DNA of 24,266 nt from a virus, in IMG/VR virus record IMGVR_UViG_3300042923_000801, positions 1-24,266 of that record. One strand, written 5' to 3'. Shown piece after piece: positions 1,732 to 24,018 of the stretch. Numbering within the stretch: position 1 is the stretch's first letter; the number at the start of each line of letters is the position of its first letter. The position numbers were made by a program, and so were the translations under genes. The notes under the pieces are model-generated. The model searched no databases. It was not told the DNA's origin and saw only the letters and a program-made list of their open reading frames with translations.

Positions 1732-1743
1732 TGTTATATTTAT
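1732..1743 (-). promoter_or_regulatory. Phage promoter motif ATAAATATAACA (portal)
   Basis: Exact copy of the 12-mer repeated through the window, between the TerL stop and the portal start, pointing into the portal gene. It lets the portal be transcribed separately from TerL. The rest of the 131-bp gap is very AT-rich with no other feature. Confidence 0.75.
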
Positions 1744-1781: not shown

Positions 1782-3653
1782 TTAATGCCTAAATAAGTTA
1801 CTAAATGCGTTAGTTGGAGTAGAGGAGTTTGATATACCTGTTGAGATAAAATAATCCGAATAGTCTGATACTACAGGTTTATACACCATTTGACCTCTTC
1901 TTAATGAGGCCAGATAAAAACAAAGTAAACCAAATACAAAGACATGATCATCATGCATTGTTTTCTTATCTGGTGGATAATCATATTTGATATTTCCTGC
2001 ATTTGTATATTTACACATAGTTATGATTTGTGTTTTCATTACTTCAATTTGAGCCAAAGACAATTCTTCTTCAGTAGTTAAAATATGTTTATGTTCATTT
2101 CCTTCATCGTCAATATTCAATATATATCCATTGTTATCATACTCCGCTGGAAACGTAACTACGCCAAGCTTTACCATTTTTTCTACCGCATCAAATATTT
2201 CGTTTCTATGTGCTCTAGGATCTACTAATTTCATTATATCTATTGCTTCTGGATATGAATCAATTGCCGTTTCATTAGCTTTATGAGACTTATCTATTAT
2301 TCCTTTATGCGTTTCTCCGTCTTTCCCTTCCCAATTTTCAAGCATATAATCAGCTACGCCACCAATCATTTGCCCACCAGCTCCAGAATCACAAATCACT
2401 GCCTTAATATTTTCATAATCAAGCCTCTGTTTATCATTTCCATTATAATCTAATAACATATCTTGAAATTTCTTTACCTGATCAGGAATTCTTAATGGGG
2501 TTTTCTTTTTTGTTGATATATCCACTAAACTAACCGCATTATGTAAATCCATACACCACCCCTTTTCAGGATCTTGAAAAAATTCCGCTATAGCTATAAC
2601 ACTATTATCATTTAATCTTGCTGAGTCCCAAGCTAAAGCAAATATTCTGTTTCCAGTATCATTACACAACAATGGGGGTCTGCGTTTTGTATGTTGCATT
2701 AAATCTCTTCTTGTTAAAATTTGACCTTCATGAGTATCGGCACTAAACTTATTATATAATTCTCTTAATGCTTTTTCTCTATTATCTCCCATAGCTTTAT
2801 CTACTTTATCTTGAGAAATAAGCGGTGGATAAATTTCGCCATTAAATTTTGCTTTCATAACTAAATCTATATTATAGTTACATACAAAATATTTTTGATC
2901 ACCCATTATCATTCTTTCCGAAAAATATTTGAATTTTTTATAAAATTCGGAAGAAGTATCACTTGCAGATGATGCATATAATAACTGCCTTGGAATTCCT
3001 TTAGGTTCTAATGTAATATCTATATTTCCACCCAATTTAAAATTTTCATCTTGGTTAACAAAGTTCTCCGCTTGAACAAAAAGTTCATCAGAAAACCAAC
3101 CTGCCTCATCAAAGCAAACTAAATTTGCTCTCTTACCTTTAATATTTGTTACATCTGAATTTAATGTATTAATTTCCGCACCATTAAATAAAGAGCAGGT
3201 AAACGAAGCTGGATTATGAACAAATCCATCAGAAGTAGCTCCATTCTTTTTTAATTCATTAAAAAATACATCTGTACTTCCAGTAAATGATTCTATTTCT
3301 TTTTTTGAAATCTTCTCAATTTTTTTAAAAACTTCTTTTGCTTGATCTCCGGTATTTCCTAAAAAGTATGTAACATGAAAAGGAAATAACATGCTTCTCA
3401 TCATTGTATAAATAGCTAATTTTGTAGTTTTACCAGCGTTTCTTGATTCAAGCCATAATACAAAGTCTTTAACCCATGAATTATACATTGCATATTTCTG
3501 CATATCCAATAATTCTATTCCCATAAATCTACTTGCAAATTCTATTGGATATTTTCTTCCCCATTGAATAACTGTCGTATATTTATCATAAGTCTCAAGT
3601 TTTCTCTGAGATATTTCTTTGTGCGAAGGTTTGTTTATAACGGTAATAGCCAT
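1782..3653 (-). CDS. terL: Terminase large subunit (ATPase/nuclease)
   Basis: This 623-aa protein is the packaging motor that cuts concatemeric DNA and pumps it through the portal. The N-terminal ATPase has a Walker A of the terminase type (ESRNAGKT, residues 69-76) and a Walker B (LVCFDEAGWF, acidic pair D182-E183). The C-terminal RNase H-like nuclease has spaced acidic residues: AWDSAR (D343), VICDSG (D422) and MHDDH (D568-D569). Its length is normal for the family. The ATG overlaps the upstream stop codon (TAATG), and GGAGG lies inside the end of the preceding gene, so the two are probably translationally coupled. The portal gene follows, the classic terminase-portal order. No truncation or missing catalytic residue is visible. 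Confidence 0.95.
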   Translation of the reverse strand: MAITVINKPSHKEISQRKLETYDKYTTVIQWGRKYPIEFASRFMGIELLDMQKYAMYNSWVKDFVLWLESRNAGKTTKLAIYTMMRSMLFPFHVTYFLGNTGDQAKEVFKKIEKISKKEIESFTGSTDVFFNELKKNGATSDGFVHNPASFTCSLFNGAEINTLNSDVTNIKGKRANLVCFDEAGWFSDELFVQAENFVNQDENFKLGGNIDITLEPKGIPRQLLYASSASDTSSEFYKKFKYFSERMIMGDQKYFVCNYNIDLVMKAKFNGEIYPPLISQDKVDKAMGDNREKALRELYNKFSADTHEGQILTRRDLMQHTKRRPPLLCNDTGNRIFALAWDSARLNDNSVIAIAEFFQDPEKGWCMDLHNAVSLVDISTKKKTPLRIPDQVKKFQDMLLDYNGNDKQRLDYENIKAVICDSGAGGQMIGGVADYMLENWEGKDGETHKGIIDKSHKANETAIDSYPEAIDIMKLVDPRAHRNEIFDAVEKMVKLGVVTFPAEYDNNGYILNIDDEGNEHKHILTTEEELSLAQIEVMKTQIITMCKYTNAGNIKYDYPPDKKTMHDDHVFVFGLLCFYLASLRRGQMVYKPVVSDYSDYFISTGISNSSTPTNAFSNLFRH

Positions 3654-5913: not shown

Positions 5914-5925
5914 TGTTATATTTAT
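5914..5925 (-). promoter_or_regulatory. Phage promoter motif ATAAATATAACA overlapping a stop codon
   Basis: Exact 12-mer. Its first bases overlap the TAA of the upstream gene (5922-5924), the same arrangement as at 15017-15028. It points toward the antirepressor-like gene, through the hairpin at 5850-5881. Confidence 0.7.
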
Positions 5926-6480: not shown

Positions 6481-7464
6481 TCAAGAAGCATATTTAAATA
6501 TATACCCTTTAGTTTTATTTATTTTACCATTTAAACATAAACTAATTGATGCTACAGAAACTCCAGTTAATTTAGATGCTTCTTTTTGATCGTATGTACT
6601 AAATAAATAATCTAAGTTAATATTAAAGATTTTTATTGATTGTTTTTCTTTTATTTTGTCAATTATCTCAGATTTAACATGCCTTGAATAACTCCATATA
6701 AAACCTTTATGAAACAAACACTTCTCTTTGCAACACTTTATTACAGCAGATGGATCAAAGCCATATTTAGTAGTTTCGTTAGAACTATCCCATTCTTTTA
6801 TTAATTCTCCATCGAAATTAAATTGATATATCTTTTTTGCTTGTGTGTTTTGGTTAATATAATCATTTAAATTAAATTCTTCAATTTCAGATTCATATAA
6901 CCAGATATATCCTTTATATGTTTTTCTTGTTTTGTTTAAACAAGTCCAAATTACTGATTGAATTATATTTAATTCTTTGCCAGCTCTTCTTGCACTTGAC
7001 CATAATTTTACTATATTACCATTCAAGTCGATTTGATAAACTGGAATAGATTCAAATTCATGCGCTTTAATATTTGCTTTCATAATTTCATATTTTTCAT
7101 CAGCGGTTTTATTTAATCTCGCTTGACTTATTTTTTTACCAAAATCAGGAGAAACATCTTTATCTTTACTTCCACCTAAATCTCGATTATATCCATTTTT
7201 ATATGTATTATATTTTGCTATATAAAATTTTTCTCTTTCATCTATACACATATAGTCACAATTTTCTATAATATAAAAGTTAAAATTTTTATTACCATAT
7301 TTATTCCATGCTCTTTGCAACTGTATATTGTAATGTTTGTTATTATTTAATTCAGATTTATGAGTTCTCCATCTTTGATTAATATCAATGCTTTGACCAA
7401 TATATTTTTTATTATTTATTAAATTTTCAATACAATAAATTCCACAAATCTTATTTTTAGCCAT
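6481..7464 (-). CDS. Free-standing GIY-YIG homing endonuclease with NUMOD1-like repeats
   Basis: 327 aa. GIY (residues 8-10) and YIG (21-23) begin the catalytic domain, followed by QRWRTH with the usual arginine, IIENC, and YNRDLGG at about residue 95. The C-terminal half has three repeats ending in KGYIWLYE, KGFIWSYS and KGYIFKYA, each preceded by a V/I-Y-Q/F-D/N-L/F-x-G start. This is the NUMOD1 DNA-binding layout of phage Seg-like and intron-encoded nucleases. These enzymes cut a homologous intergenic site so that their gene is copied into it. It sits alone between a terminator and the acidic gene, has GGAAGG before its ATG and no phage promoter of its own. No intron borders are visible, so it is probably free-standing. 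Confidence 0.93.
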   Translation of the reverse strand: MAKNKICGIYCIENLINNKKYIGQSIDINQRWRTHKSELNNNKHYNIQLQRAWNKYGNKNFNFYIIENCDYMCIDEREKFYIAKYNTYKNGYNRDLGGSKDKDVSPDFGKKISQARLNKTADEKYEIMKANIKAHEFESIPVYQIDLNGNIVKLWSSARRAGKELNIIQSVIWTCLNKTRKTYKGYIWLYESEIEEFNLNDYINQNTQAKKIYQFNFDGELIKEWDSSNETTKYGFDPSAVIKCCKEKCLFHKGFIWSYSRHVKSEIIDKIKEKQSIKIFNINLDYLFSTYDQKEASKLTGVSVASISLCLNGKINKTKGYIFKYAS

Positions 7465-7556: not shown

Positions 7557-8759
7557 TTAATTTAATTCAACAACGTAATAGGCTTTTACACCTTTATCTG
7601 TACAAACACATACCATTTGACTTGGCTTGCCACTTAGTCTCTTTTCAACCGTATAGTCATCACCACTGCCAGCAAGAGATCCGCCTCGAATGATTTTAAT
7701 TCCACCAATTTCATCAACTGAACATGTATGCAGATGCCCATATGTAATTGCATAAGGTTTAATTCCGGTCATTAATACTAAGTTAGCAACACCACTTTTA
7801 TTAAATCCATCGAAATCACCATGAACCCCGAAGTACGTTAATCCACGTATGTTCATTGTAGAAATAGAAGAGTCTATCTTGTCCTCAATTAGTTTGAAAT
7901 TTTGAATATGTTCCAATTTAGCCTTAACATACCAATCTACTAAAGAGTCGAGTCTTTCGTCGTGCAAAGCATCTTCTTTACGATCAATGCGAGAGTGATT
8001 TCCGGTCACACTTGACATATAAACGTTATTAAAACGCTTACTTAATTCATATATAAAAGAAGTGACCATTTCACTAGCAAGTTTAATCTGTTCAATGACA
8101 TTTTCCCTATTTGTTATTGCAAGTGCTTTGTGAATACTGTTTGAAATCAGATCGCCTTGTAAAGAAACAAAGGCATTTTCAGAATTATGAGTTTCTTGAA
8201 TATTTAATATCTCATCTAGATATTTATTTATTCTGTCTTTTGCAATATCAGAATTATAAACACCAAAAGCAGAAGAGAAGCATTGTCCAATATGTAAGTC
8301 ACTTAATATAATAAGTAAGTCGTTATTAGATTTGATATTTACTAAATTAGTGATAGAGTAATCAATTCTACCTTGATATTTAATTTCTTCTTCAAGTTTA
8401 TTAAGTTTTTCTTCAACTCTGCCATCAATGAAATTCATTTTCTGCCAAGCATTACGTTCATCTCTAAACTTAATTTTCATTCGTTCAAGTTCACGAGTTT
8501 GTACTTGTAATTCTTTAAAGTATTCATCTTCTTTAAAAGCATCAAAAACACCTGCTTCATAGAAATCTCTAGCATATTTTACAGCCTTCCGATGTCCAGA
8601 TTCACCTTTTACATCTTCTTCATCAACTTGAGCGTTAACAATAGGAGTTATTTCCTCCCAATTTTTATATTTACCTTGACGAATTAAATTGTCCATTCTC
8701 CAAACATATTTATAATAATTCTCTCCTGGTAATCTATTTAAATCGTTAATATTCACCAT
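7557..8759 (-). CDS. Calcineurin-like metallophosphoesterase
   Basis: About 400 aa. The C-terminal two-thirds carries the full set of metal-binding motifs: SDLHIG (about residue 155), GDLIS, GNHSR, GVHGD and GHLHT. It is therefore probably active as a two-metal phosphoesterase or nuclease. The N-terminal 140 residues are helical and highly charged (RELERMKIKFRDERNAWQK), perhaps a coiled-coil oligomerisation or DNA-binding part. Such proteins are common in phages; substrate unknown, with DNA or RNA ends (SbcD/MRE11-like) one option. The start is unclear: AAGGGA (8760-8765) touches ATG 8759, is 3 nt from GTG 8756 and 9 nt from ATT 8750; TTG 8768 precedes it. I chose the ATG without certainty. 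A terminator follows. Confidence 0.9.
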   Translation of the reverse strand: MVNINDLNRLPGENYYKYVWRMDNLIRQGKYKNWEEITPIVNAQVDEEDVKGESGHRKAVKYARDFYEAGVFDAFKEDEYFKELQVQTRELERMKIKFRDERNAWQKMNFIDGRVEEKLNKLEEEIKYQGRIDYSITNLVNIKSNNDLLIILSDLHIGQCFSSAFGVYNSDIAKDRINKYLDEILNIQETHNSENAFVSLQGDLISNSIHKALAITNRENVIEQIKLASEMVTSFIYELSKRFNNVYMSSVTGNHSRIDRKEDALHDERLDSLVDWYVKAKLEHIQNFKLIEDKIDSSISTMNIRGLTYFGVHGDFDGFNKSGVANLVLMTGIKPYAITYGHLHTCSVDEIGGIKIIRGGSLAGSGDDYTVEKRLSGKPSQMVCVCTDKGVKAYYVVELN

Positions 8760-8843
8760 TCCCTTCAAATTTTATTTGACATTTGTCTGTGGTTGCAGTA
8801 TTATTAATATGGATAAATATAGGCAATAGAATGCAATAAAAAA

Positions 8844-10286
8844 TTATAAAGTTATTTTAGTACTTTTATTAACCGCAATAACTTTAGTAGTTTTACATTT
8901 ATTGCTTAATTCAGTTTCCAATTCTTTTTTAAATGAAATTTTTTCATCCTGATTTGAATGAACAAGATATATTTTTTCACAATTAATAGAAGAGTAGTAT
9001 TTCAATAAATCGTCATGCTGCATGTGGCTGCTGAATGAGTGTAAATCAACTATTGCCGCACGATTCTTTACTGCTTTACCATTTATAGAGATAGTTTTCT
9101 GTTCTTTGCCATTTTTTATTTTATATGCCAACGTATTCGTTGTGGCATATCCTATAAACAAAATACAATTATCTTGATTAGGCAAAATATGTTGTACCCA
9201 TTTTACACTTCTTCCAGCTTGGAGCATTCCGCTCGAAGATAATACGCACTTAGCTTTACCATCAGCCATAACGGATTTACTTTCTTCTGGTGTGTATGCA
9301 AATTTTACATTTTTCCAATTCATCATTAAGTCAAATTTATCTTTTGCATCTCCCTGTAATGATTCAGAATAGGCATTTAAAAGACGTATTGATAAAGGGC
9401 TATCTACGATAATTGGAATATTGAAATTTTCATCTTTCCCAAAAATAGAATACAAAAGCCATAACATATATGGAAGTCTGTCTAAGCTAAAAGTCGGTAT
9501 TACAACTATCTTTTTATTTTCAACACAAAACTGTGTTATTACTGTTTTTATTTTGTCTAAATCATTTTGTAAATCCTTTTTATTCATTGACCTAGAACTT
9601 GATGCATATGTAGCTTCACCAATCACTATATTGCTTTTTACTATTGGCGAAAACTTTTCTACAAATACTTTATTATTGTTTAATTTTGTATTCCCAATAT
9701 CGGAAGTAAATACAATTTTCTTAGTAGAGTTATTTAACGATATAAATAATTCCGTTTGTGCTGAAAACAATATATGTCCAGCATGAATAAATTTAAATTT
9801 CAAGAAATTATCCAATTCAAATATTTTATCAAATTCATATTCGTCTACATGATCTAATGCTAATTCGACTTCATTATCTGAATATAATGGTGTATATTCT
9901 TTTTCAAATTTATCAGAAAGATATTCGCAATCTCTTTGATTAATATAACTTGAATCATACCACATTTCTCTTAATATTCTAATACTTCCTTTTGGTACTA
10001 TTATTCTTGCATTAAAATCATATCTAAATAATGCCGGAATATTACCGATGTGATCCGCATGATTATGTCCAACAAATACATACTTTATTTCAGCCTTATT
10101 TTTTATATTACTTATAAGCTTTTTATTTAAATCATAATTCTCTTTAACAGTTTTGCCGTCTTGTATCGTTCCAACTTCAAATAGAGCCGTATTTCCGTTA
10201 TAATTTATTACTGAGCATGAGCCTGTTACAGACTCTGCATTGCCACCTATAATATCAATTGTTACTTTGTTATCTTTCTTGGCAAT
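8844..10286 (-). CDS. Beta-CASP metallo-beta-lactamase ribonuclease, AUU start
   Basis: 480 aa when started at ATT 10286-10284. Metallo-beta-lactamase motifs: HNHADH (74-79), HAGH (168-171) and TSDIG (D196). Beta-CASP motifs: PTFSLDR (264-270), SSGMLQAGR (about 351) and DLHSFSSH (H416, H421), with a final VHS at 443. This is the layout of RNase J/CPSF73-type RNA nucleases. The first ATG (9965) would delete the zinc-binding HxHxDH, so the true start must be upstream. The frame there holds no ATG, GTG or TTG back to TGA 10304-10302, but ATT lies 6 nt after AAGGAG. A TTG one base away is out of frame and stops after 7 codons. Likely role: processing or turnover of phage or host mRNA. Confidence 0.92.
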   Translation of the reverse strand: MAKKDNKVTIDIIGGNAESVTGSCSVINYNGNTALFEVGTIQDGKTVKENYDLNKKLISNIKNKAEIKYVFVGHNHADHIGNIPALFRYDFNARIIVPKGSIRILREMWYDSSYINQRDCEYLSDKFEKEYTPLYSDNEVELALDHVDEYEFDKIFELDNFLKFKFIHAGHILFSAQTELFISLNNSTKKIVFTSDIGNTKLNNNKVFVEKFSPIVKSNIVIGEATYASSSRSMNKKDLQNDLDKIKTVITQFCVENKKIVVIPTFSLDRLPYMLWLLYSIFGKDENFNIPIIVDSPLSIRLLNAYSESLQGDAKDKFDLMMNWKNVKFAYTPEESKSVMADGKAKCVLSSSGMLQAGRSVKWVQHILPNQDNCILFIGYATTNTLAYKIKNGKEQKTISINGKAVKNRAAIVDLHSFSSHMQHDDLLKYYSSINCEKIYLVHSNQDEKISFKKELETELSNKCKTTKVIAVNKSTKITL

Positions 10287-10579: not shown

Positions 10580-10595
10580 CAAAATAGGAGAGTAG
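10580..10595 (-). repeat. Second copy of the 16-nt element, tRNA 3' trailer
   Basis: CAAAATAGGAGAGTAG (plus-strand reading) is identical to 4807-4822. On the minus strand it begins at the base after the tRNA discriminator and supplies one arm of the hairpin covering the ribosome binding site of the 84-aa gene. Confidence 0.6.
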
Positions 10596-10679
10596 CGGAA
10601 AGTGTAGGTTTCGATCCCACATACCCTTTTAGGTTCTCGTTTTCAAGACGAGCGCATTTGCCAATTCTGCCAACTTTCC
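10596..10679 (-). tRNA. tRNA-Ser (anticodon UGA)
   Basis: A complete cloverleaf folds on the minus strand. Acceptor stem GGAAAGT/ACTTTCC (7 bp). D-arm with GCA/TGC. Anticodon stem CTCGT/ACGAG with loop CTTGAAA giving UGA. Long variable arm (ACC/GGT core) typical of tRNA-Ser. T-stem GTGGG/CCTAC with loop ATCGAAA. Discriminator base G, as expected for Ser; CCA is not encoded. It would decode UCA, frequent in the AT-rich phage genes. A terminator-like hairpin lies just upstream and the 84-aa gene downstream. Confidence 0.93.
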
Positions 10680-10873: not shown

Positions 10874-10885
10874 TGTTATATTTAT
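10874..10885 (-). promoter_or_regulatory. Phage promoter motif ATAAATATAACA (small RNA and tRNA)
   Basis: Exact 12-mer, placed directly after the terminator hairpin of the RNA polymerase gene. It would restart transcription into the candidate small RNA, tRNA-Ser, the 84-aa gene and the beta-CASP nuclease gene. Confidence 0.75.
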
Positions 10886-10886
10886 T

Positions 10887-10960
10887 CTATAAAAATAAAA
10901 AAATAAAGGAGAATACCAGACTATCCGAATATATTTGTAGATTGGGGATAGTCTTTCTCC
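10887..10960 (-). terminator. Strong terminator after the RNA polymerase gene
   Basis: On the minus strand AGACTATCC and GGATAGTCT form a 9-bp stem extended outward by GGAGA/TCTCC (10908-10960). A long T-rich tail follows down to about 10887. The 158 nt between it and the polymerase stop codon (10961-11118) show only a small CCTTGT/ACAAGG hairpin near 11000 and no gene. Confidence 0.75.
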
Positions 10961-11118
10961 ATAGTAGAGGAGTTTGATTTATACAATAAATATTACTACA
11001 ATCCTTGTAAAACAAGGGTTTTCTTGTGTTTTATGACTAAAATTACAAAATATTCAAAATGCCATTTTAACTAGTAGAATCAACGCTTTATGGGTGTTTT
11101 AATTTCAAAAGCTTAACG

Positions 11119-13968
11119 TTACATTTCTTTATTATTTCTATATTTCTGAACTCTTAATCTTGTGTTTTCTTTGTCTTTGATTTTTTGACATTTCTTACAT
11201 CTAATTGTTTTCATGTCACACGCACTTGTTATTATATCACATCCGCAATCAATACACTTGATATTTTTTGTTTTTTTAGGAATGTATTTAGCACAATCAT
11301 TGCAGTATTTATGGTAATTTTGTTTCTTTTTAAATCTTTTACCACATTTACCACAGACACCATCTTTATCTCCTATGTTCCTTTTTAAATTTTCTACAAT
11401 AATTTTACCGTAACAAAACCATAAAGACTCTTTTGACTTACTATTCTTTTCATCGTACAAATATTTAACTAGCATATCACAAATTTCATATTCAGAATAT
11501 TTAAATTTACTTAATTCATCTCGAATTTCTAGTGCTATATAAGATATATTACCTTTGTTTTCATCTTCCATATTAATTTTAAAATGATATGTACGATTTA
11601 ACTCGTTATATTTATTTATTAATTCTTCTGATAATTTAATTTGACTGTTATTCATCAACATAGTATAGTTAAATTTCCCAAACTTATTAATAGAAAAATT
11701 CATTTTTTTATTAATAATAATATCATCTAACTTGTTTACTATACTATCATTTTTACTTTCAATTTGAGATAACTCTTTGTCTTTTGCATAAATAAAAAAA
11801 TATGGTACTTTTTTCTTTGTGTATTTTGTAATTATTTTTTTTATTTCTATAGGTCGTTTAGGCTTATACAAAGTCTTTGCATAATCAATTGTAAAGTTAT
11901 TTTCCATGCAAAGTAACTTTATGGCTTTCATCTTTTCATCAGTAATAATTCCACTATTCCATATTTTTGTGATATCATTACTTATTGCTCCTATATTTCC
12001 TCCAGTATATGCTGCATTCAAACCATTATATATCTGCTCGTTTGTTAATATAACAGGATCTGCCTTCCTCATATTGTAATACAACGGAACAATATCTCGC
12101 ATATTCCTCTCCGCTATTTGTACAATGCTTTTTTCTGCTACAACCAAACTACGATCCCCATCTACATCAAATTGAAGTATTTTAGAAATTAAGTCATGAC
12201 AACTCGTATAAATAGCGTCAGTTATAAACCATTTTGATTTTTCATCATCTATTACATTATTTCTTACCGCATGTTCTCTGTATAAGTGTGGAGATCTTAA
12301 GCAATCAAGTTTTTCAACTTTCTTATACAAGTTACAATATACTTCATTATTTTGTAATAATCCTACTGGCTCTTTTATTCCACAAAATAAATTTTCACAA
12401 AAAGCGTACATGTCAGGTATTAAGAAAGTGTACTTCCCATCAATTTCTAACTTTGCAGATTTATAATCTTTGATTAAACTTAATTTAATTTGCCTTAATA
12501 CATCCTTTGTGTAAATATCTCTTAATAACTCGGGGTATATTTCTAACGCTTGTTGTAAATATGTTTTATTTTTATTGTACTTTGTCACTCCAAAAGCATT
12601 TAGCATGGAATCTACTGTAGATGACAAATTTACTATTTTATTACTTGATTTGAAAGCAATATCAACTAATTCATCATCTGTCATATCTGTAAGAGTTTGA
12701 ATCATTTGATAATTTATTTTTGATTTTTTTATATTATCTTCCTCTAAATTACAAATTCCTGCTTGACACTTATTTTCACTGAAATATTTTTGATACTCAT
12801 TCCATGATTCATAATATTTATACATTTTAAATTGACTTTTAGTAAAAATTATTTTTATATCTTCTTCTAGAATATTATGTTCTTTGCCATATATGTCTTT
12901 TACCATTTCATGTTTTATTTCAGGATGTAATTCATTCTGTTCTAATATAAATTTTTTGAAATCAAAAGTAGCAAGTAAACCTTTTACCCAAGGTAGTCTA
13001 CACATAAAATTCTTTTTACTTATAGACGGGAGCATCATGCCAGATCCATCTGTATGTGTAATTGGAACAGGCATCGTTTTTCTTTCTATTGTATAAGTAA
13101 GATCATCAATCAAATCCACCTCTCCGGTAACATTCGTTTCAAAATCTTCAACTACTATGGTTTTATTAATATCAAAATCTTTCCATAAATCAGTCGCGCT
13201 ATTAGTTAAAGCTAAATATGCTAAATATTTATTAACATTTATTCCGCCTAATTCATTTATTTTTTCTATTGTTAAACCACATAATAAAGTTTTAATATGT
13301 CTGTTCCAAACGGATTCTTTAATAAAAACTGTCTTTTTTGTACGAATTTGACCAGCAGAAGAAGTAAAAAACCTATACTTTTCCCCATTATAAATAAATC
13401 CGTGTAAAATCATATCTTTTATAACATCAAAATAATACACTTGAACTACCATAATATCTGTTGAGAGATCATTAGTTTTTAATCCAACCGTACGAGTAAA
13501 TGTTGACTCAAAAACTGATATTATGTTTTTAATATTTAAACTTTTTTCTTTTAAAACTCTCATTTGATAGCTATGATTAAACTCTTTATTATAATATTGA
13601 TTATAATCACATCTATATTCTAAGATTTGTAATAATTTATCTTTAGAACTTTCAATTAACAACTTTTTATGTTCAAGATATCTTTCAATGTTGTCCTTTC
13701 TATTTAAAAGCTCAATAATATTATAGCCTATATACCTATATTCTTGATCTTCGGGTATAAATGAATAATCATTTTTATTTATCATTTCTTCAATTTCTTC
13801 ATTATATCCATAAAAATTCAGTTTTTCATTTATTGATTTCATTTCATTTTTCAATTTGTTACGTTCTGATTTTAATTTATAAATAATATTATGTAACTTT
13901 CTTTCATTTTTATAATAAAAATCTCCAGTGTCTAAACTATAGATATGTATTTGTTCAGAAAGTGCCAA
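11119..13968 (-). CDS. Single-chain two-barrel RNA polymerase (YonO/QDE-1-like) with two C-terminal zinc ribbons
   Basis: 949 aa. The catalytic signature DVDGD lies at residues 601-605 (FDVDGDRSLVV), the Mg-binding DxDGD of the double-psi-barrel polymerases that include SPbeta YonO and eukaryotic QDE-1-type enzymes. YonO is a single-chain DNA-dependent RNA polymerase for phage late genes. About 40 residues before it comes LDCLRSPHLYREHAVRNN, like the conserved RxPxLHxxD region. A Gln/Thr-rich core (SSAGQIRTKK, about 205) precedes. The N-terminus is coiled coil. The C-terminus carries two Cys4 ribbons: C872/C875/C889/C892 and C905/C908/C924/C927. Start is TTG, 9 nt after AGGAGG inside the preceding gene and 2 nt after its stop. 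Likely job: transcribing from the ATAAATATAACA promoters (inference). Confidence 0.87.
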   Translation of the reverse strand: MALSEQIHIYSLDTGDFYYKNERKLHNIIYKLKSERNKLKNEMKSINEKLNFYGYNEEIEEMINKNDYSFIPEDQEYRYIGYNIIELLNRKDNIERYLEHKKLLIESSKDKLLQILEYRCDYNQYYNKEFNHSYQMRVLKEKSLNIKNIISVFESTFTRTVGLKTNDLSTDIMVVQVYYFDVIKDMILHGFIYNGEKYRFFTSSAGQIRTKKTVFIKESVWNRHIKTLLCGLTIEKINELGGINVNKYLAYLALTNSATDLWKDFDINKTIVVEDFETNVTGEVDLIDDLTYTIERKTMPVPITHTDGSGMMLPSISKKNFMCRLPWVKGLLATFDFKKFILEQNELHPEIKHEMVKDIYGKEHNILEEDIKIIFTKSQFKMYKYYESWNEYQKYFSENKCQAGICNLEEDNIKKSKINYQMIQTLTDMTDDELVDIAFKSSNKIVNLSSTVDSMLNAFGVTKYNKNKTYLQQALEIYPELLRDIYTKDVLRQIKLSLIKDYKSAKLEIDGKYTFLIPDMYAFCENLFCGIKEPVGLLQNNEVYCNLYKKVEKLDCLRSPHLYREHAVRNNVIDDEKSKWFITDAIYTSCHDLISKILQFDVDGDRSLVVAEKSIVQIAERNMRDIVPLYYNMRKADPVILTNEQIYNGLNAAYTGGNIGAISNDITKIWNSGIITDEKMKAIKLLCMENNFTIDYAKTLYKPKRPIEIKKIITKYTKKKVPYFFIYAKDKELSQIESKNDSIVNKLDDIIINKKMNFSINKFGKFNYTMLMNNSQIKLSEELINKYNELNRTYHFKINMEDENKGNISYIALEIRDELSKFKYSEYEICDMLVKYLYDEKNSKSKESLWFCYGKIIVENLKRNIGDKDGVCGKCGKRFKKKQNYHKYCNDCAKYIPKKTKNIKCIDCGCDIITSACDMKTIRCKKCQKIKDKENTRLRVQKYRNNKEM

Positions 13969-13970
13969 TA

Positions 13971-14987
13971 CTATCTTCCTCCTTTGTCATTAGATAAAAC
14001 AAGATTAACAATACTTTTTAATTCAGTATTTATATATCTATAATAATCATCGTAAGCCCATTTTTTATTTTGTCTAAAAGGAACGTCCATCCGATATAAA
14101 TTAATATTATTATCTATACAATATTTGTTTTTCTGGTTGTCTCTTTCTCTTGCTATTAAACGTTTTTTACAATTATCGTGATTATCTCTGTGTTCTTCGT
14201 CATCAATTTCGATCAAGTAAATCAGTTCATTTTTGTTTGATAACAATGCAAAATCGAATTTTAATTTTTCATTATTCTTACCTTCCAACGAATCAAACTT
14301 ATATTGAATCTCAATATTTAAACCAAATGAATTTAAATAGTCCCACACAACTTTCTCTGAAAAAGGCATACTACAAATAGGACACCATCTCCCTTTCTTG
14401 ATATTATTAGGTAATATATCCCAATCATAATTATGAGTCTTACAACGAACCTTTATATATGTTCCCGCATTTATGTATTCAGATAATAATTCTCCGTTTT
14501 TTGATTGTACTATTTGCTCTATTTCATTTTCAAAATCTCCTCGCCTACCACAACAATATGGGCACCAATGATTTCCGCTATATAAAGAGTCTGCTGTAGT
14601 TCTAAATGGAGGATGGTTTGGATCATTACACTTAAATTCGTATATTGTCTTTGCAGTTTTCCATTCTTTAGACAGCAATATTCCATCATGATCTTCGCAA
14701 TATTGTTTTAATCTTTGATAATAATATTTTTTATCTTTCATATCATGTTTTTCTAATCCCTTTTTGCTTTTATTTTCTCGCTGACATTCTTTACATGGTA
14801 AAAAATAATTCTTACATATATTTTTAGCATTAATTGTAGTTGTTGTATCTCCATGTTTTTCACAATGATAAATTAATTCAATGGGATTTTCTGACCCATT
14901 ATATTCTCCTATAATATCTACCTTATCACCATGATATTTTCTAACTTTTTCTTTAAACCATTCTTGACTTTTGTTTATATGTCCCAT
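13971..14987 (-). CDS. Zn-ribbon homing-type endonuclease, Vsr-like/EDxHD fold
   Basis: 338 aa. Three treble-clef/zinc-ribbon repeats are visible: C42/H45/C65/C68, C120/C142/C145 and C182/H185/C202/C205, the last two ending in WCPYC and WCPIC. The C-terminal nuclease part has KFDFAL (D245), then LIEIDDEEHRD (E260, D262, H266), RERDNQKNKYC, and a final LYRMD strand. This matches the Vsr-like (PD-(D/E)XK superfamily) or EDxHD nucleases found as phage homing endonucleases with zinc-ribbon DNA readers. AAAGGAG precedes the ATG. A phage promoter starts 30 nt upstream, so it has its own control. Insertion just before the RNA polymerase gene, whose ribosome binding site lies inside its last codons, is typical of mobile intergenic endonucleases. 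Specific target unknown. Confidence 0.82.
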   Translation of the reverse strand: MGHINKSQEWFKEKVRKYHGDKVDIIGEYNGSENPIELIYHCEKHGDTTTTINAKNICKNYFLPCKECQRENKSKKGLEKHDMKDKKYYYQRLKQYCEDHDGILLSKEWKTAKTIYEFKCNDPNHPPFRTTADSLYSGNHWCPYCCGRRGDFENEIEQIVQSKNGELLSEYINAGTYIKVRCKTHNYDWDILPNNIKKGRWCPICSMPFSEKVVWDYLNSFGLNIEIQYKFDSLEGKNNEKLKFDFALLSNKNELIYLIEIDDEEHRDNHDNCKKRLIARERDNQKNKYCIDNNINLYRMDVPFRQNKKWAYDDYYRYINTELKSIVNLVLSNDKGGR

Positions 14988-15016: not shown

Positions 15017-15028
15017 TGTTATATTTAT
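15017..15028 (-). promoter_or_regulatory. Phage promoter motif ATAAATATAACA (endonuclease/RNA polymerase)
   Basis: Exact 12-mer, touching the TAA of the 129-aa gene (15028-15030) and 29 nt from the ATG of the endonuclease. It would feed both the endonuclease and, behind it, the RNA polymerase: possible positive feedback if that polymerase uses this motif. Confidence 0.78.
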
Positions 15029-15417
15029 TATTTACTAATCCAAACTTTCCAATATGTAACTTCTTTATGTACGATTTTTGTTACTAAATTAGATTCATAT
15101 TTCATTAACTCCTTTATATCATTAAAATAATATACATAATCAATCACAACTTTATTTTTGCATCGCCGGATATTTCTTAAAATATCTTTGATCCTATCGC
15201 AGTTTCGCTTATCTAATGTATCAACTCCATCGTATTTCCCGTCAGATAGCTGACAATATGATCTTACACAACGGTTATTCGCTGGCTTACGTGATGGGAG
15301 AGCAGCATATACTGGAATATTTTTCCTTAATTGAGCATAAGCAGATTGCCACTCCTCATTCGTCATATCTTTTACTATATCATCATTCAGTTTTTCATTT
15401 ACATCCGTAGTTATCAT
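15028..15417 (-). CDS. Hypothetical protein (129 aa)
   Basis: 129 aa, no family recognised. It has a charged N-terminus, a central basic Cys-containing stretch (NNRCVRSYCQ, then KRNCDR and RRCKNK) and a beta-rich C-terminus ending in YWKVWISK. GAGAGG lies 8 nt before the ATG. A phage promoter motif ends 19 nt upstream of the start and another overlaps its stop codon, so the gene forms its own transcription unit between helicase and endonuclease. Nothing shows its function. Confidence 0.8.
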   Translation of the reverse strand: MITTDVNEKLNDDIVKDMTNEEWQSAYAQLRKNIPVYAALPSRKPANNRCVRSYCQLSDGKYDGVDTLDKRNCDRIKDILRNIRRCKNKVVIDYVYYFNDIKELMKYESNLVTKIVHKEVTYWKVWISK

Positions 15418-15436: not shown

Positions 15437-15448
15437 TGTTATATTTAT
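15437..15448 (-). promoter_or_regulatory. Phage promoter motif ATAAATATAACA (129-aa gene)
   Basis: Exact 12-mer, 19 nt from the ATG, with the ribosome binding site beginning about 5 nt after it. The tight fit implies transcription starts within a few bases of the motif. The rest of the gap up to the helicase stop (15449-15556) holds a CTCCTA/TAGGAG hairpin and no gene. Confidence 0.78.
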
Positions 15449-17452: not shown

Positions 17453-18555
17453 TTTTTACTATCCTCCAATTTAAGTATTTGTTTTATGTTATATTTATCA
17501 TTTTCATGATTGATGGTTATATCACATAGATTTGTAAATATATCTAAATATTTTTCACTATATTTCAATATGACATTTTTTACATCCTTATCATATCTTG
17601 TATTTGCATTTCTCATAATTAAAGATTGGAATTCTATATTAAATTCTTTGATAAAATCATCAATACTTTTATTTATGTCAAATTCCTTCAATAAAGATTT
17701 ACACCAATCCAAATGTATAAAATATACTTCATAAGTTTTGTATATGTATTTTATATTCCTAGAATTCAATTCTCTTGCCAATGCCAACGAAAATATCTTT
17801 GATTCATCCCCATAATATCTTTTATTAGCTCTACCTTTTTCTATTCCGGCTTCGTTATCTGCAATTTCAACACATTTAGTATAAAATCCCATTTCCTCTT
17901 CAGAAGCAGTATGTTCCTCTGATTCATAATACAATTCATACTTAGGTTTCCCATTTTCATCGTAGCCTGACATTCTCTCTGCTGGAATTGAACTATGAAC
18001 GACATTTGCTTCCCGCCATATTATTGAACCAGTACTTTTTAAATAATCTAATGACATAACGAGATAAGATGATATCATATCGTCTACCTTTATAAAGAAA
18101 TCTTTAACATCATCACTTTCCCACTCATATATTCTGGCAACTTCACTTCTAGAGTATTTTACGGTATCATAATTTCTATTTATCATATGTATCTGTTTTG
18201 CCCACTTACTACTTGTTAAAGCAATACGATTGTTTTCGTCATGCCCCTCAATTAACTTTAATAATATAAGTGGAACAATGTACCTATACATACCATTCAT
18301 CATTTTTTCTACTTCTTTAGATTTTGGAACAGAATATACCTCCTTAATTTCATATTTTCTGTTCCCGAGATCTAACAACTTACAATATCTGTTTGCACTA
18401 TTTATAATCGTAGTCTTATTACTACTAATAAACTTCCCATTCTCGTAATACTTATTCTTTTGTTTATCCGTCCCAAATAATTCAATTAAATCTTCTTCAT
18501 TTATAATTCCAATTGGGATAACTGGTTTAATATATTGATTTTTCTTTTTTCTAAT
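17449..18555 (-). CDS. Hypothetical phage protein, AUU start (368 aa)
   Basis: The frame is open back to a TAA just above the ribosome binding site. Its first ATG/GTG/TTG is the TTG at 18378, but the 59 codons before that read as ordinary protein (basic N-terminus RKKKNQYIKP, then NEEDLIELFG). A perfect AAAGGAGG stands 7 nt before ATT 18555-18553, so AUU initiation is strongly indicated. No family recognised: mostly helical, charged and soluble, with WREANVVHSSIPAERM around residue 185. It is the first full gene behind the leftward sigma-A promoter and is coupled to the helicase, so a role in replication or early regulation is plausible but unproven. The last 50 bases hold a phage promoter motif. 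Confidence 0.83.
   Translation of the reverse strand: MRKKKNQYIKPVIPIGIINEEDLIELFGTDKQKNKYYENGKFISSNKTTIINSANRYCKLLDLGNRKYEIKEVYSVPKSKEVEKMMNGMYRYIVPLILLKLIEGHDENNRIALTSSKWAKQIHMINRNYDTVKYSRSEVARIYEWESDDVKDFFIKVDDMISSYLVMSLDYLKSTGSIIWREANVVHSSIPAERMSGYDENGKPKYELYYESEEHTASEEEMGFYTKCVEIADNEAGIEKGRANKRYYGDESKIFSLALARELNSRNIKYIYKTYEVYFIHLDWCKSLLKEFDINKSIDDFIKEFNIEFQSLIMRNANTRYDKDVKNVILKYSEKYLDIFTNLCDITINHENDKYNIKQILKLEDSKN
17487..17498 (-). promoter_or_regulatory. Phage promoter motif ATAAATATAACA (helicase), inside coding sequence
   Basis: Exact 12-mer inside the 3' end of the 368-aa gene (encoding ...DKYNIK...), 34 nt from the helicase TTG. The codons there are compatible with both uses. Confidence 0.7.
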
Positions 18556-18650: not shown

Positions 18651-18662
18651 TGTTATATTTAT
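18651..18662 (-). promoter_or_regulatory. Phage promoter motif ATAAATATAACA (368-aa gene)
   Basis: Exact 12-mer about 95 nt upstream of the AUU start, between two hairpins. Possible later-phase promoter for the whole leftward block, separate from the sigma-A promoter. Confidence 0.72.
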
Positions 18663-18772: not shown

Positions 18773-18784
18773 TGTTATATTTAT
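18773..18784 (-). promoter_or_regulatory. Phage promoter motif ATAAATATAACA (leader region)
   Basis: Exact 12-mer just upstream of the ribosome binding site of the possible leader peptide and about 50 nt downstream of the sigma-A promoter. Confidence 0.7.
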
Positions 18785-18836: not shown

Positions 18837-18865
18837 ATTATATCATAGGTGAAAAATTCTGTCAA
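18837..18865 (-). promoter_or_regulatory. Consensus sigma-A promoter, leftward
   Basis: Minus strand TTGACA (18865-18860), exactly 17 nt of spacer, then TATAAT (18842-18837). This is a perfect vegetative promoter for host RNA polymerase, starting near 18830. It would launch leftward transcription of the 368-aa protein, helicase, endonuclease and RNA polymerase genes before any phage polymerase exists. Confidence 0.88.
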
Positions 18866-18870
18866 GCAAA

Positions 18871-18882
18871 TGTTATATTTCT
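18871..18882 (-). promoter_or_regulatory. Near copy (11/12) of the phage promoter motif
   Basis: Plus-strand reading TGTTATATTTCT, one base off the complement of the 12-mer, directly upstream of the -35 box of the sigma-A promoter. The flanking TGTTnTATTTCTTTAnTAG also resembles the rightward promoter at 20193-20212. Confidence 0.4.
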
Positions 18883-19589: not shown

Positions 19590-20000
19590 AAACGTTCGGA
19601 TTATTTCTGTTGCAAATGCAACAAACTAAAATTATAACGTTTACTGATATATCGTTTACCGTAATAATGCGTTTATATGTATCGTATGCCGATATAGTAT
19701 AGCCGTTGGTAGCTCAACGTTAACCAATAGAATGAATATAACTTCAAATTATATCAACGTGTATTATCATAACTATAACTTATAACATGTTAATCAACAA
19801 GAATTTATCGTAATACGATATATAATCCAATGTTATCACGACATCATTAACCATAACTAATACTTATACCATTAACGGCTAATCTAGTGCAATATATCAT
19901 GTGTTATATTTATCCACTAATCAATCCGCAACATGTTGATAAATAAATGCAACCTAACCATATACCATTGTAACCGCGTATAAGCTCCATGCAGCCATTA
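19590..20000. other. Possible replication origin (iteron- and DnaA-box-like words)
   Basis: CGTTTA occurs at 19639, 19653 and 19670 with related AACGTT words at 19592 and 19715. TTATCCACT (19909-19917) and TGTTGATAA (19934-19942, inverted) are each one base from the DnaA box TTATNCACA. An AT-rich stretch follows. Position at the divergence of the two gene blocks fits an origin, but the matches are imperfect and no initiator gene is recognised here. Confidence 0.3.
19902..19913 (-). promoter_or_regulatory. Phage promoter motif ATAAATATAACA in non-coding DNA
   Basis: Exact 12-mer with no gene within 1.3 kb downstream on the minus strand. It would transcribe leftward through the hairpin-rich region, perhaps making non-coding RNA or an origin primer. 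Confidence 0.6.
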
Positions 20001-20222: not shown

Positions 20223-20270
20223 TATATCAAGATAAGAAATAAATAAAACCTAAATATGGAGGATATAAAA

Positions 20271-20465
20271 ATGAAAAGAGAATATGTAATAGAAATTTGT
20301 GGGTATGGGAAAAAGGTTAGATATGCATTAAGAGAAAGAATAACTCCAACTATGTTAAATGCAGCAATTAAAGTTAGTAGGTCACTCGACAGTGTAAAGA
20401 CATATGCAATAGAAAATAATATCAAAGTTGTAGCTATTGGTGACATGTATCAAGTAATGGCATAA
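20271..20465 (+). CDS. Small hypothetical protein (64 aa), first rightward gene
   Basis: 64 aa. Start at ATG 20271 because GGAGG (20258-20262) lies 8 nt before it; the longer in-frame ATG at 20256 would contain that site. Basic, compact alpha/beta-looking sequence (YVIEICGYGKKVRYALRERI, then NNIKVVAIGDMYQVMA) with no recognised family. Its stop codon TAA shares a base with the hammerhead ribozyme, so its mRNA would be cut about 54 nt after the stop codon. Confidence 0.8.
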   Translation: MKREYVIEICGYGKKVRYALRERITPTMLNAAIKVSRSLDSVKTYAIENNIKVVAIGDMYQVMA

Positions 20466-20525
20466 TTACCCTGATGAGTCTTTGAAAATTAAGACGAAAC
20501 TAACCTTAAATGGTTAGTCGGTAAT
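20465..20525 (+). ncRNA. Type I hammerhead ribozyme
   Basis: All conserved parts are present and correctly joined. Stem I 5' strand ATTACC (20465-20470). Core CTGATGA (20471-20477). Stem II GTCTT/AAGAC with an 8-nt loop. Core GAAA (20495-20498). Stem III ACTAACC/GGTTAGT closed by TTAAAT. Unpaired C at 20519 as cleavage site, preceded by the required U. Stem I 3' strand GGTAAT (20520-20525). Stems II and III are capped and stem I is open, hence type I. Predicted self-cleavage is after C20519. It follows the stop codon of the 64-aa gene directly, so it would trim that gene's mRNA 3' end and give the downstream RNA a 5'-OH. Confidence 0.93.
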
Positions 20526-20529
20526 AGGT

Positions 20530-20603
20530 TAGTGTCACCGACTTATAGTCACCGCCTTCACCAGATCATTCCAATAGCGGTCATGTCTCGTGGAGCGACA
20601 CTA
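20530..20603 (+). ncRNA. Cloverleaf-like structured RNA after the hammerhead
   Basis: TAGTGTC/GACACTA (20530-20536 and 20597-20603) form a 7-bp outer stem enclosing three hairpins: GACT/AGTC (loop TAT), ACCGC/GCGGT (loop of 21 nt) and CTC/GAG (loop GTG). The outline resembles a tRNA, but there is no TTCGA-type T-loop, no 7-nt anticodon loop and no CCA, so it is not a functional tRNA by sequence. It starts 10 nt after the ribozyme cleavage site and may be the stabilised 5' end of the cleaved RNA. Confidence 0.5.
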
Positions 20604-21286
20604 CATCGGTTTATCAAAGCACAGAAAGCCTATTCTGGTTAAACAGTAAAGTAGTTAAACAGTAAGTAAACAGATTATGATTAAACATTCCGAATAACAA
20701 AAATATTTAAATCAATCTAAACAGGGCTATAATAAATAGTTATTACGTGCAAATCGTAAAATAGGTTATCAGTAAATGAAACATATCAATCATAAGTCCT
20801 TAAAGTCCTAACGGCACTTGAACAATGACAACTTAATCTAAGTCGGCTTTTCGTATAGACACGAAAGGAAGTTACTCATACAACTTACCCATAAGACATG
20901 AAACGGGATACATTGGAAAGTGTGAGACTGCCAGCATACAATAAGTAATGCATTGCAGTATAAATAACAAATCTAACAATTAACTGCTTACTGAATTCTA
21001 TCAGAATTAGCGGTTAAACAGAATTAATATAACAGTGTTTTTATATAATGCTAATAACCTGATTACCTGTATAAGTAATAGCATATGGCAATCACATAAA
21101 CAGTATATATCATATAAAGTGTATACACCAACGAAAACGAATTAATCAACAGAATGTAGCGTAAAACCGAAATTTGAGGTTGATTTAAGTAGTTGAATAT
21201 TAAAGGAATGAAACACAAAATAAATATGATTGAATGGATTTGGCAAGGTTATTAGCATGAATATTTACATTGCAACTCAATAACAA
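20604..21286 (+). other. Non-coding stretch with AAACAG repeats and hairpins
   Basis: About 680 nt without a credible gene. AAACAG occurs six times (twice as TTAAACAGTAA near 20640 and 20656; also near 20668, 20719, 21016 and 21108). Hairpins include TTTCGT/ACGAAA (about 20848-20866), AATTC/GAATT (about 20994-21008) and a nested ATGCT/AGCAT plus ATTAC/GTAAT (about 21048-21085). A plus-strand near copy of the phage promoter (ATTAATATAACA, 11/12) lies at 21023-21034. It could be a long 3' UTR, a non-coding RNA or an origin part. Confidence 0.45.
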
Positions 21287-21298
21287 ACAAATATAACA
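21287..21298 (+). promoter_or_regulatory. Near copy (11/12) of the phage promoter, rightward, abutting parS
   Basis: ACAAATATAACA differs from the 12-mer at one base and is on the plus strand, 32 nt before the next gene. The same bases also allow a weak sigma-A reading (TTGCAA, 16 nt, TATAAC). parS begins on its last base, so transcription would start inside the ParB site. Confidence 0.5.
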
Positions 21299-21314
21299 TG
21301 TTTCACGTGAAACA
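21299..21314. promoter_or_regulatory. Perfect parS site (ParB/Spo0J binding)
   Basis: TGTTTCACGTGAAACA is identical to the consensus 16-bp chromosomal parS bound by bacterial ParB (Spo0J in Bacillus), and the palindrome extends to 18 bp (ATGTTTCACGTGAAACAT). ParB loads at parS, spreads, and with ParA/Soj and SMC drives segregation. No ParA or ParB gene is visible in the window, so the site would use host ParB or a phage ParB encoded elsewhere. It lies in the leader of the 57-aa gene, between a promoter-like element and its ribosome binding site. Confidence 0.92.
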
Positions 21315-21330
21315 TTAAGAGGTAGCCATC

Positions 21331-21504
21331 ATGATAAAATTTGCGAAGGTAATCGTAACAAAAGACATTATTATTAAAGGAATCCTGATAGTAAAAGCCG
21401 GAACAAAAGGAATGATCTTAAGATTGACAGAAAGTAACCCATTTGTTAGATTTAGCACAGGGCGAATGATGAAAATACCAAAACATTTATTAATGGTATT
21501 GTGA
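21331..21504 (+). CDS. Small SH3-like hypothetical protein (57 aa)
   Basis: 57 aa. AGAGG lies 8 nt before the ATG. Beta-strand-rich with a GTKGMILRL turn and a final FSTGRMMKIPKHLL, reminiscent of the small SH3-like barrel proteins frequent in phages of Firmicutes (family resemblance only). It is the first gene after parS and 42 nt before the next; ParB spreading from parS could silence it. Function unknown. Confidence 0.75.
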   Translation: MIKFAKVIVTKDIIIKGILIVKAGTKGMILRLTESNPFVRFSTGRMMKIPKHLLMVL

Positions 21505-21546
21505 AACAAACTAACATTTTATAGTGAATAAGGAGGATATTAAACA

Positions 21547-21882
21547 ATGGATAATACACAAAAAGAAATTGAAAAAATAATGGTAGAAAGTCTTTTTACA
21601 AAAGGTGGTACAATTTCAGAAGCTGAAGCAAGGGAAATAGTAAATAACAAAAAACAATTACAAAAGGTTACTGTTAGAAATTCCACTGGGCATATTATTA
21701 CTGGCTATGGTGTGATTATAGGCGAAACAAAAACAATGATAAAAGTAAGATTAACAGAAGTAAAAGATTATTGGAATAAACTATCAATCAATGACATTAT
21801 AGGCTTTTCTAAACTTGATGGAGTAAGCAAAGATACAAGACATAAAAGACAATACAAACTAGATTTTTGTATAGAATACTAG
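21547..21882 (+). CDS. Hypothetical protein (111 aa)
   Basis: 111 aa, preceded by AAGGAGG 10 nt before the ATG. N-terminal 40 residues are helical and charged (EKIMVESLF, ISEAEAREIVNNKKQ). The C-terminal part is beta-rich (KVTVRNSTGHIITGYGVIIG) and could be a small barrel, ending in a basic stretch DTRHKRQYK. No family recognised. Member of the rightward small-gene operon. Confidence 0.78.
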   Translation: MDNTQKEIEKIMVESLFTKGGTISEAEAREIVNNKKQLQKVTVRNSTGHIITGYGVIIGETKTMIKVRLTEVKDYWNKLSINDIIGFSKLDGVSKDTRHKRQYKLDFCIEY

Positions 21883-21914
21883 CATAGAATTAAGATTTGG
21901 TAGTTTTAAGATAA

Positions 21915-21980
21915 CTCTCTTGCAGAGGATAGCGGATTTTATTCCGCTATAATGCACTAGCAGCCGTTCCAAGTCGGTGC
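21915..21980 (+). promoter_or_regulatory. Three-hairpin 5' leader before the 70-aa gene
   Basis: Consecutive hairpins: CTCT/AGAG (loop TGC), ATAGCGGA/TCCGCTAT (8 bp, loop TTTTAT, 21929-21950) and GCAGCCG/CGGTGC (one bulged G, 21960-21980). The ribosome binding site AGGAG follows after 9 nt. No T-tract follows, so this looks like a structured leader or processing signal rather than a terminator. Confidence 0.5.
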
Positions 21981-22003
21981 AAATATATAGGAGTGATAAA
22001 ACT

Positions 22004-22216
22004 ATGAAAAGAGAACGTAAAGACAAATGGGCAGTGTATGGAGAATATGGTGGACATTTTACCAATCTTATAGAAGCTAAGCAATGTGCTAAGGAAGCAT
22101 CTAAATTAATCGAAAACGAAGAAGTAAGCATATTGCTAATTGAAGATGGTATTTATTATATTGATTACTTAAACGGTAAATGTATTCGTGATGGATGGAC
22201 AATTAAAAAGAAATGA
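22004..22216 (+). CDS. Small hypothetical protein (70 aa)
   Basis: 70 aa from ATG 22004; AGGAG lies 10 nt upstream, inside a longer frame opened by a GTG at 21977, which is therefore not the start. The sequence suggests a short alpha/beta fold: WAVYGEYGGHFTNLIEAKQCAKEAS then ILLIEDGIYYIDYLNGKCIRDGW. It resembles small phage proteins that carry a strand-helix-strand unit, but no named family is recognised. A structured leader precedes it. Confidence 0.78.
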   Translation: MKRERKDKWAVYGEYGGHFTNLIEAKQCAKEASKLIENEEVSILLIEDGIYYIDYLNGKCIRDGWTIKKK

Positions 22217-22261
22217 AATCCTTGTTTGCTTTGGTCTTACAAGGTAGAAAGAAGGTAAACA

Positions 22262-22468
22262 ATGAGTAATAAGAATAAACTAAATATTGATATGTGGTAT
22301 GGGGATAATCAAAAAGAAGCTGATAGAATAGACGTTCTTTTTTATCCAAACGGTTGCGAATACAGAGGGAATATATATAAAGATGGAAAAACAATTGGAG
22401 ATTATTCTTGCAAGGATTCTGTATTATTAGAAAAAACATTTCCACAATTAACATTTAATTGGGGTTAA
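22262..22468 (+). CDS. Small hypothetical protein (68 aa)
   Basis: 68 aa. AGAAGG lies 6 nt before the ATG. Acidic, beta-rich: RIDVLFYPNGCEYRGNIYK, then a GKTIGDYSCKDSVLLEKTF segment of the kind seen repeatedly in small early proteins of Firmicute phages. No known function. The 45-nt spacer before it can form a CCTTGT/ACAAGG hairpin. Confidence 0.75.
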   Translation: MSNKNKLNIDMWYGDNQKEADRIDVLFYPNGCEYRGNIYKDGKTIGDYSCKDSVLLEKTFPQLTFNWG

Positions 22469-22525
22469 ATAACCAATTCAAACAATTATTTTATCGCTAT
22501 TAAATAGCAGAAAAGGGGTTAAATA

Positions 22526-22759
22526 ATGAATAAGTGTTATGTTAGTATATCAAGTATTCCAACAGAGAAAGCTATAGAACAGGATATATTATATATTTGT
22601 GCTGAATGTTTAAATAAAGAAGAAGCAGAACAAAACAAAAACTTTTTAGTTTCTGAATGGTTAGAAAAAGTAAATAAACAAAAAAAATATATTAAGCCAT
22701 CAAGTCTAGTATTTATTGCTATATTGGAGGCAGAAGGTGAACTAGAATTAACACGCTAA
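22526..22759 (+). CDS. Small hypothetical protein (77 aa)
   Basis: 77 aa with AAAAGGGG 7 nt before the ATG. Helical and charged in the middle (LNKEEAEQNKNFLVSEWLEKVNKQKK), strands at both ends (CYVSISSIP; SSLVFIAILEAEGELE). One CxxC pair (YICAECL) is present but no second pair, so a zinc site within one chain is unlikely. Unknown function; part of the rightward operon. Confidence 0.76.
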   Translation: MNKCYVSISSIPTEKAIEQDILYICAECLNKEEAEQNKNFLVSEWLEKVNKQKKYIKPSSLVFIAILEAEGELELTR

Positions 22760-22825
22760 AAGGATATTCCATTAGTCAAATAAAAGTCTGTTAAATATCA
22801 AATAAACGTAACAGGAGGGTTTTAC

Positions 22826-23086: not shown

Positions 23087-23127
23087 CTTATAAAAAGGAT
23101 ATTCTATATCCATAGGAGGGCGAAACA

Positions 23128-23364: not shown

Positions 23365-23400
23365 ACATAAAAATACAAATTCTATAAGGAGACAAAAAAC

Positions 23401-23574: not shown

Positions 23575-23625
23575 AAAGTGCATTTTATGCATACTTTTAT
23601 TAAACAGTAAAGGAGATATTAAACA

Positions 23626-23850: not shown

Positions 23851-23891
23851 AATGGGTATTTGATGAATGATAAAGAAATACAACAATAAAA

Positions 23892-23925: not shown

Positions 23926-23948
23926 AAGAAAATTAAATAACCAATTAC

Positions 23949-23982: not shown

Positions 23983-24018
23983 GTATTGTCAATTAAACAA
24001 TAACAGGAGGAAAATAAA

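Follow-up and report, generated by a model that had tools for sequence, protein, structure and literature searches.

The yonO locus and its polymerase

The window analysed here, a virus record of 24,266 bases (IMG/VR IMGVR_UViG_3300042923_000801), is a fragment of a phage genome and carries on its minus strand a yonO gene for a single-chain RNA polymerase with Cys4 ribbons at its C terminus (Table 1). Directly upstream lies an HNH-type homing endonuclease gene, which ends 2 bases from the yonO start, and downstream a probable terminator. A sigma-A start signal noticed in an earlier note on this DNA is confirmed at 18865–18837, where all 12 positions match the consensus, and is the probable start of the operon. 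A 12-base motif, ATAAATATAACA, recurs on the same strand.

The window gene codes for an SPbeta YonO ortholog. The protein is 46.8% identical to SPBc2 YonO (NP_046615.1) over 94% and, by tblastn, 45.5% identical to Perkons YonO over 94%; its profile matches are PHROG 8308 (2e-269) and Pfam RdRP (2.6e-12). By tblastn it matched 35 phage records, all below 60% identity; for 23 the match covered 80% or more of the protein. The relatives gathered comprised 46 loci from IMG/VR and, from contigs of bacterial and archaeal genomes, 80 kept out of 97. Two alignments were used: A1, with 12 sequences including SPBc2 and Perkons, and A2, with 48, which left out interrupted, shortened or very divergent genes, among them L049, which lacks a ribbon in cis. 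The DVDGD signature on which the earlier note based its assignment is present at residues 601–605. In a number of relatives yonO is split by insertions (L033, L035, L039–L043 and L046; SPbetaL5, phi3T, SPR and Goe11), some of which hold endonuclease-like open reading frames (ORFs); the break in L039 falls inside the FDxDGD motif.

An AlphaFold2 model built from 48 sequences has a mean predicted local distance difference test (pLDDT) score of 91.3 and a predicted template modelling (pTM) score of 0.83. Foldseek returned 18 matches with E <0.001, every one a plant RDR2 or fungal QDE-1 chain, with RDR2/QDE-1 E values of 6e-19 to 5e-13. VIA-align gave Z scores of 28.9 for maize RDR2 (613 residues, root-mean-square deviation 5.2), about 25–26 for QDE-1 and about 16 for the phage enzymes P74 gp62 and P32 gp64, and aligned residues ~501–751 with beta-prime chains. 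Both catalytic barrels are judged to lie in one chain from the QDE-1/RDR2 alignment over residues 4–866 and the beta-prime match. Membership in the YonO/QDE-1 group, proposed in the earlier note, is thus borne out by sequence identity, profile and fold, and the expected two-barrel core around residue 600 is supported. The ribbons lie outside the region covered by the RDR2 and QDE-1 matches.

Table 1. Features of the window, with strand and supporting observations
Feature	Position	Strand	Evidence or remark
yonO, single-chain two-barrel RNA polymerase, 949 residues, TTG start	11119..13968	-	ORF, homology, fold
Catalytic DVDGD, residues 601–605	12154..12168	-	D601, D603, G604, D605 invariant in 48/48 aligned rows
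Ribbon 1, C872–C892	11293..11355	-	columns invariant in 48/48 rows
Ribbon 2, C905–C927	11188..11256	-	found in part of the family
HNH-type homing endonuclease gene	13971..14987	-	PHROG 559, 1.6e-36; between motif and yonO
TTGACA-17-TATAAT promoter for sigma-A, 12/12; operon leading to yonO probably starts here	18837..18865	-	sequence
Hairpin and T-run after yonO, probable terminator	10905..10961	-	fold -18.5 kcal/mol, z -2.8
ATAAATATAACA, exact	1732..1743	-	precedes gene after terminase (portal by position)
ATAAATATAACA, exact	5914..5925	-	motif scan
ATAAATATAACA, exact	10874..10885	-	just past yonO terminator
ATAAATATAACA, exact	15017..15028	-	29 nucleotides (nt) before HNH start
ATAAATATAACA, exact	15437..15448	-	19 nt before ORF 15028–15417
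ATAAATATAACA, exact	17487..17498	-	34 nt before helicase start
ATAAATATAACA, exact	18651..18662	-	motif scan
ATAAATATAACA, exact	18773..18784	-	downstream of sigma-A promoter
ATAAATATAACA, exact	19902..19913	-	motif scan
AGAAATATAACA, one-mismatch copy	18871..18882	-	5 nt before -35 of 12/12 promoter; register +17
Terminase large subunit	1782..3653	-	PHROG 2, 1.3e-18
YonJ-like exonuclease/phosphoesterase	7557..8768	-	PHROG 284, 8.9e-55; tblastn to yonJ 8e-7; late-module synteny
GIY-YIG homing endonuclease with NUMOD domains	6481–7464	-	second homing gene of late module
Beta-CASP/RMMBL metallo-RNase	8844–9965	-	in YonO late module
tRNA-Ser (TGA)	10595–10679	-	just past yonO terminator
Type-P5 twister ribozyme	21921–21978	+	Rfam score 43.8, gathering 37.6; between two small early ORFs

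The C-terminal ribbon in cis and in trans

The last 80 residues of the window enzyme hold two Cys4 sets (C872/C875/C889/C892 and C905/C908/C924/C927). The earlier note had called them two added ribbons; both sets are there, but they are not an addition, and "family-wide ribbon, here in two copies" is the better wording, because SPbeta YonO has a ribbon too and the second is found in only part of the family. The Cys columns are invariant in all 48 rows of A2, where the aligner placed the ribbon of single-ribbon rows at the ribbon 1 columns, and in 12 of 12 rows of A1, SPBc2 and Perkons included. Four CxxC pairs occur in 12 of the 48 sequences, three in two, and two or fewer in 34, and the two-ribbon state needs five changes on the tree. 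By eye, single ribbons resemble ribbon 1 in some cases and ribbon 2 in others. A two-ribbon profile had 73 matches among 14,235 ORFs: 71 were YonO or intron-split YonO ends, as judged from motif, sequence and place, and two were companion genes directly after a ribbonless YonO.

Ribbonless enzymes form a divergent branch that was reached through relatives of the window terminase (13 loci). Their catalytic motif is GADCDGD or similar, their identity to the window YonO is about 25–30%, and they end without any CxxC. The next open frame, of 262–321 residues, carries a basic tail and either one or two Cys4 ribbons at its end, and overlaps the polymerase frame by up to 124 bases or adjoins it (starts and overlaps being those of the open reading frames). 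Such a companion with a ribbon was present at 15 of the 19 loci first examined. A wider look found one at L258 (355 residues, overlap of about 200 bases), and an overlapping ribbon gene likewise accompanies the ribbonless polymerase of L049, which is more distant (27% identity). Among ribbonless loci whose downstream DNA was long enough, the total is 17 of 18, a count that includes the near-copies L226/L232 and L264/L265. L257, which holds a companion start, and L262 break off too early for a ribbon to show and stand outside the 18; L250, L252 and L253 are contigs of L227, L228 and G064. The polymerase genes of L226, L252 and L260 are also split.

The companions match PHROG 30716, a family with no assigned function. 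A profile of their non-ribbon part, run against 7,115 ORFs, had 16 matches, L224 among them, all of them companions, and had no match in the window. A model from three sequences (pLDDT 64) gave a best Z of 7.7, below the safe level of the tool, and offers a hint that the middle part may be winged-helix-like.

Taken together, the distribution suggests that the ribbon may be an obligate module of YonO polymerases, supplied in cis or in trans. We infer that the Cys4 ribbon or ribbons with their basic tail form a constant module of the family rather than an ornament of the window phage, and would contact nucleic acid (upstream DNA, promoter or RNA). Counting against such a module is L230, a YonO-like ORF without DxDGD at whose locus no ribbon gene was found. 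That the ribbons are a recent mobile add-on with no fixed role would fit the at least five changes of ribbon number on the tree; it is nevertheless very improbable, as at least one ribbon is kept in 48 of 48 sequences and a ribbon gene lies next door in 17 of 18 ribbonless enzymes. A search of the open PMC literature found no paper describing a YonO ribbon in cis or in trans.

A more specific, and tentative, possibility is that the module serves YonO polymerases as a basal initiation factor. Ribbonless enzymes would have it as a separate subunit, with a winged-helix-like domain and a C-terminal zinc ribbon (PHROG 30716) in a layout resembling that of archaeal TFE, and only the ribbon part would survive, fused, in SPbeta-type enzymes including that of the window. 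If this were true, the one-chain polymerase would be a two-part promoter-reading machine.

The motif ATAAATATAACA and the start of late transcription

Nine exact copies of ATAAATATAACA occur in the window against 0.06 expected in shuffles, all on the minus strand and in sense orientation. On the late strand the nine (0.04 expected) become 14 when one mismatch is allowed (1.27 expected); the plus strand of 20251–24266, the early strand, has no exact copy and two within one mismatch (0.33 expected). One scan returned the motif with six matches in 17 late upstream regions (0.2 expected). No exact copy occurs in SPBc2 or at the loci of Perkons and the 46 relatives.

Relatives have motifs of their own: ATAATTAAGTT in Perkons, AATATAAAAGT in G006, TAATTAACTTA in G015 and AATAACTAAAA in G008. 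Oriented copies precede early genes in 24 of 102 upstream regions in Perkons, 25 of 109 in G006 and 24 of 90 in G015, and late genes in 7 of 31, 7 of 41 and 16 of 60. On SPBc2 a blind scan gave as its top word CAAAAAATATG, part of SPBRE as read from ten promoter regions that the available text of PMC10516654 names. Only antisense counts of the same word served as control; the antisense score of the scan went unused because it scores the reverse complements of the same words. Relative to sigma-A -35 boxes, preferred registers are -9 and +22/+24 for SPBRE, +12 to +17 for G006, -26 to -24 and +18 to +23 for G015, and -24/-23 and -12 to -7 for Perkons.

SPBRE is the operator of SPbeta MrpR, a monomer with a tyrosine-recombinase fold, and the promoter of yonP, immediately upstream of yonO, is an MrpR peak, according to the sections of PMC10516654 available. 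MrpR homologs occur in phages with strong motifs (Perkons, G008, G006, G015, G011 and G014, with a partial one in G013). Perkons ORF66, annotated as a "putative integrase", is the MrpR candidate by position and tblastn, with TATAATTAAGTTA as its candidate target. None was found in G001, G004, G005, G007, G009 and G010, several of which are fragments. In G004, G005 and G010 different oriented words were found, grouped around TTAGCTAA and TAACTAAACAA, perhaps the sites of another repressor.

These comparisons indicate that ATAAATATAACA is probably a repressor operator or stoperator, which fits better than the YonO promoter proposed in the earlier note, since the motifs of relatives serve early and late genes, the same scan finds SPBRE, the registers are set to sigma-A promoters, and L5-type stoperators are likewise asymmetric and oriented (PMC9283540, in the portion available). 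Several observations weigh against a repressor site: no MrpR homolog was found in the window, itself a 24-kb fragment; of the 16 copies within one mismatch, only 1 was seen next to a strong sigma-A promoter; the exact copies are confined to the late strand; and a scan of upstream regions of the window, 21 only, gave a different top word.

A YonO promoter used many times, giving short leaders from RNA starts immediately past the motif, would account for nine exact sense-only copies, several of them 16–34 nt upstream of start codons with an intervening ribosome site, and most without a nearby sigma-A promoter; the available text of PMC5467207 leaves the SPbeta YonO promoter open. We consider it unlikely. 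The motif has no exact counterpart in SPBc2 or at the loci of the 46 relatives, the sequence at the mapped late start of SPbeta (SPBc2 60451) is different, and the equivalent motifs serve early genes equally, whereas SPbeta YonO carries out DNA-dependent RNA synthesis of late genes only, as far as the available text of PMC5467207 states. This late-only restriction was examined on the equivalent motifs of relatives, where it failed. There is even less to recommend an element acting in mRNA or otherwise (a translation enhancer, or a site for another phage factor): the motif is always transcribed in sense and often stands just before a ribosome site, but the preferred positions that motifs of several phages take inside sigma-A promoters or upstream of them point to DNA, and its 12 bases are conserved exactly. 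A feedback switch on yonO, also proposed, is not supported: copies do lie ahead of yonO in the operon, but none is exact directly before it, the nearest (15017–15028) precedes the HNH gene, and no YonO start is known at any of them.

The SPbeta late start, mapped to position 2225998 of strain 168 in the consulted part of PMC5467207, was placed at SPBc2 60451 (minus strand) by way of G053. A block there, AGTCGGATAATAGTCATTTAT, at the foot of an apparent hairpin, has 20 of its 21 positions unchanged in L212 and L213, both Bacillus relatives. It is absent from the window within five mismatches and therefore gives no promoter for the window phage. A CT-rich word found in late regions of several phages, TACTCTCCTATTT, was set aside as a promoter element; it is the 3' arm of terminator-like hairpins in G007 and G014, not clearly so in the window. 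Late transcription in the window probably starts between the hairpin after yonO and the ORF beginning at 10563. Downstream of the late start in SPBc2, a DUF3800-VIII RNA (Rfam, 1e-6) lies at 59409–59474 (minus strand), in the non-coding gap before yonK.

Proposed circuit and comparison with known systems

In the circuit proposed here, the host sigma-A polymerase would read from the consensus promoter across the helicase, HNH and yonO genes as far as the hairpin. In the prophage, an MrpR-like repressor would bind ATAAATATAACA copies beside the promoter, as operator, and along the operon, as stoperators, holding it down. After induction YonO would transcribe beyond the terminator into the exonuclease, terminase and following genes, a late role suggested by SPbeta and by the late-module setting. 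That these parts belong together (a YonO ortholog, a standing ribbon module in cis or trans, an MrpR-like repressor on ATAAATATAACA and YonO-driven late genes) is the best joint explanation, and we regard it as likely.

Among neighbouring features, the open frame of the metallo-RNase extends upstream as far as about 10290; an ATT codon there, preceded by a ribosome site, may be its start. Near yonO, repeated words resembling tRNA are found in several relatives. A scan based on the helicase found no relatives.

YonO is the model case of a single-chain enzyme related to multi-subunit RNA polymerase. How it finds its promoter is left open in the available text of PMC5467207, and a ribbon that is family-wide, in cis or in trans, is a concrete part to examine. 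Reading ATAAATATAACA as an operator would end a probable false lead and extend SPBRE-like control to several other phages.

The window enzyme resembles that of SPbeta in its roughly 47% identity over 94%, its DxDGD motif, its late-module place and a C-terminal Cys4 ribbon, but has two ribbons where the SPbeta enzyme has one, and the sequence at the single mapped start of the SPbeta late operon is missing from the window. With QDE-1 and plant RDR2 it has a common fold over residues ~4–866; those proteins are eukaryotic RNA-silencing enzymes of 14–16% identity whose match leaves the ribbon part uncovered. The motif is, like SPBRE, a short, asymmetric, AT-rich element that recurs in the orientation of transcription; positions in or next to sigma-A promoters are seen for the motifs of relatives and, in the window, for a single one-mismatch copy. 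Its sequence differs from SPBRE and the repressor of the window phage itself is not seen in the 24-kb fragment. Mycobacteriophage L5 stoperators, in the accessible text of PMC9283540, are likewise many, asymmetric, placed in short intergenic spaces and oriented with transcription, but have another sequence and repressor type, and the window sites are candidate stoperators. The proposed circuit has a parallel in SPbeta: there the promoter of yonP, which precedes yonO, is an MrpR peak (PMC10516654, available text).
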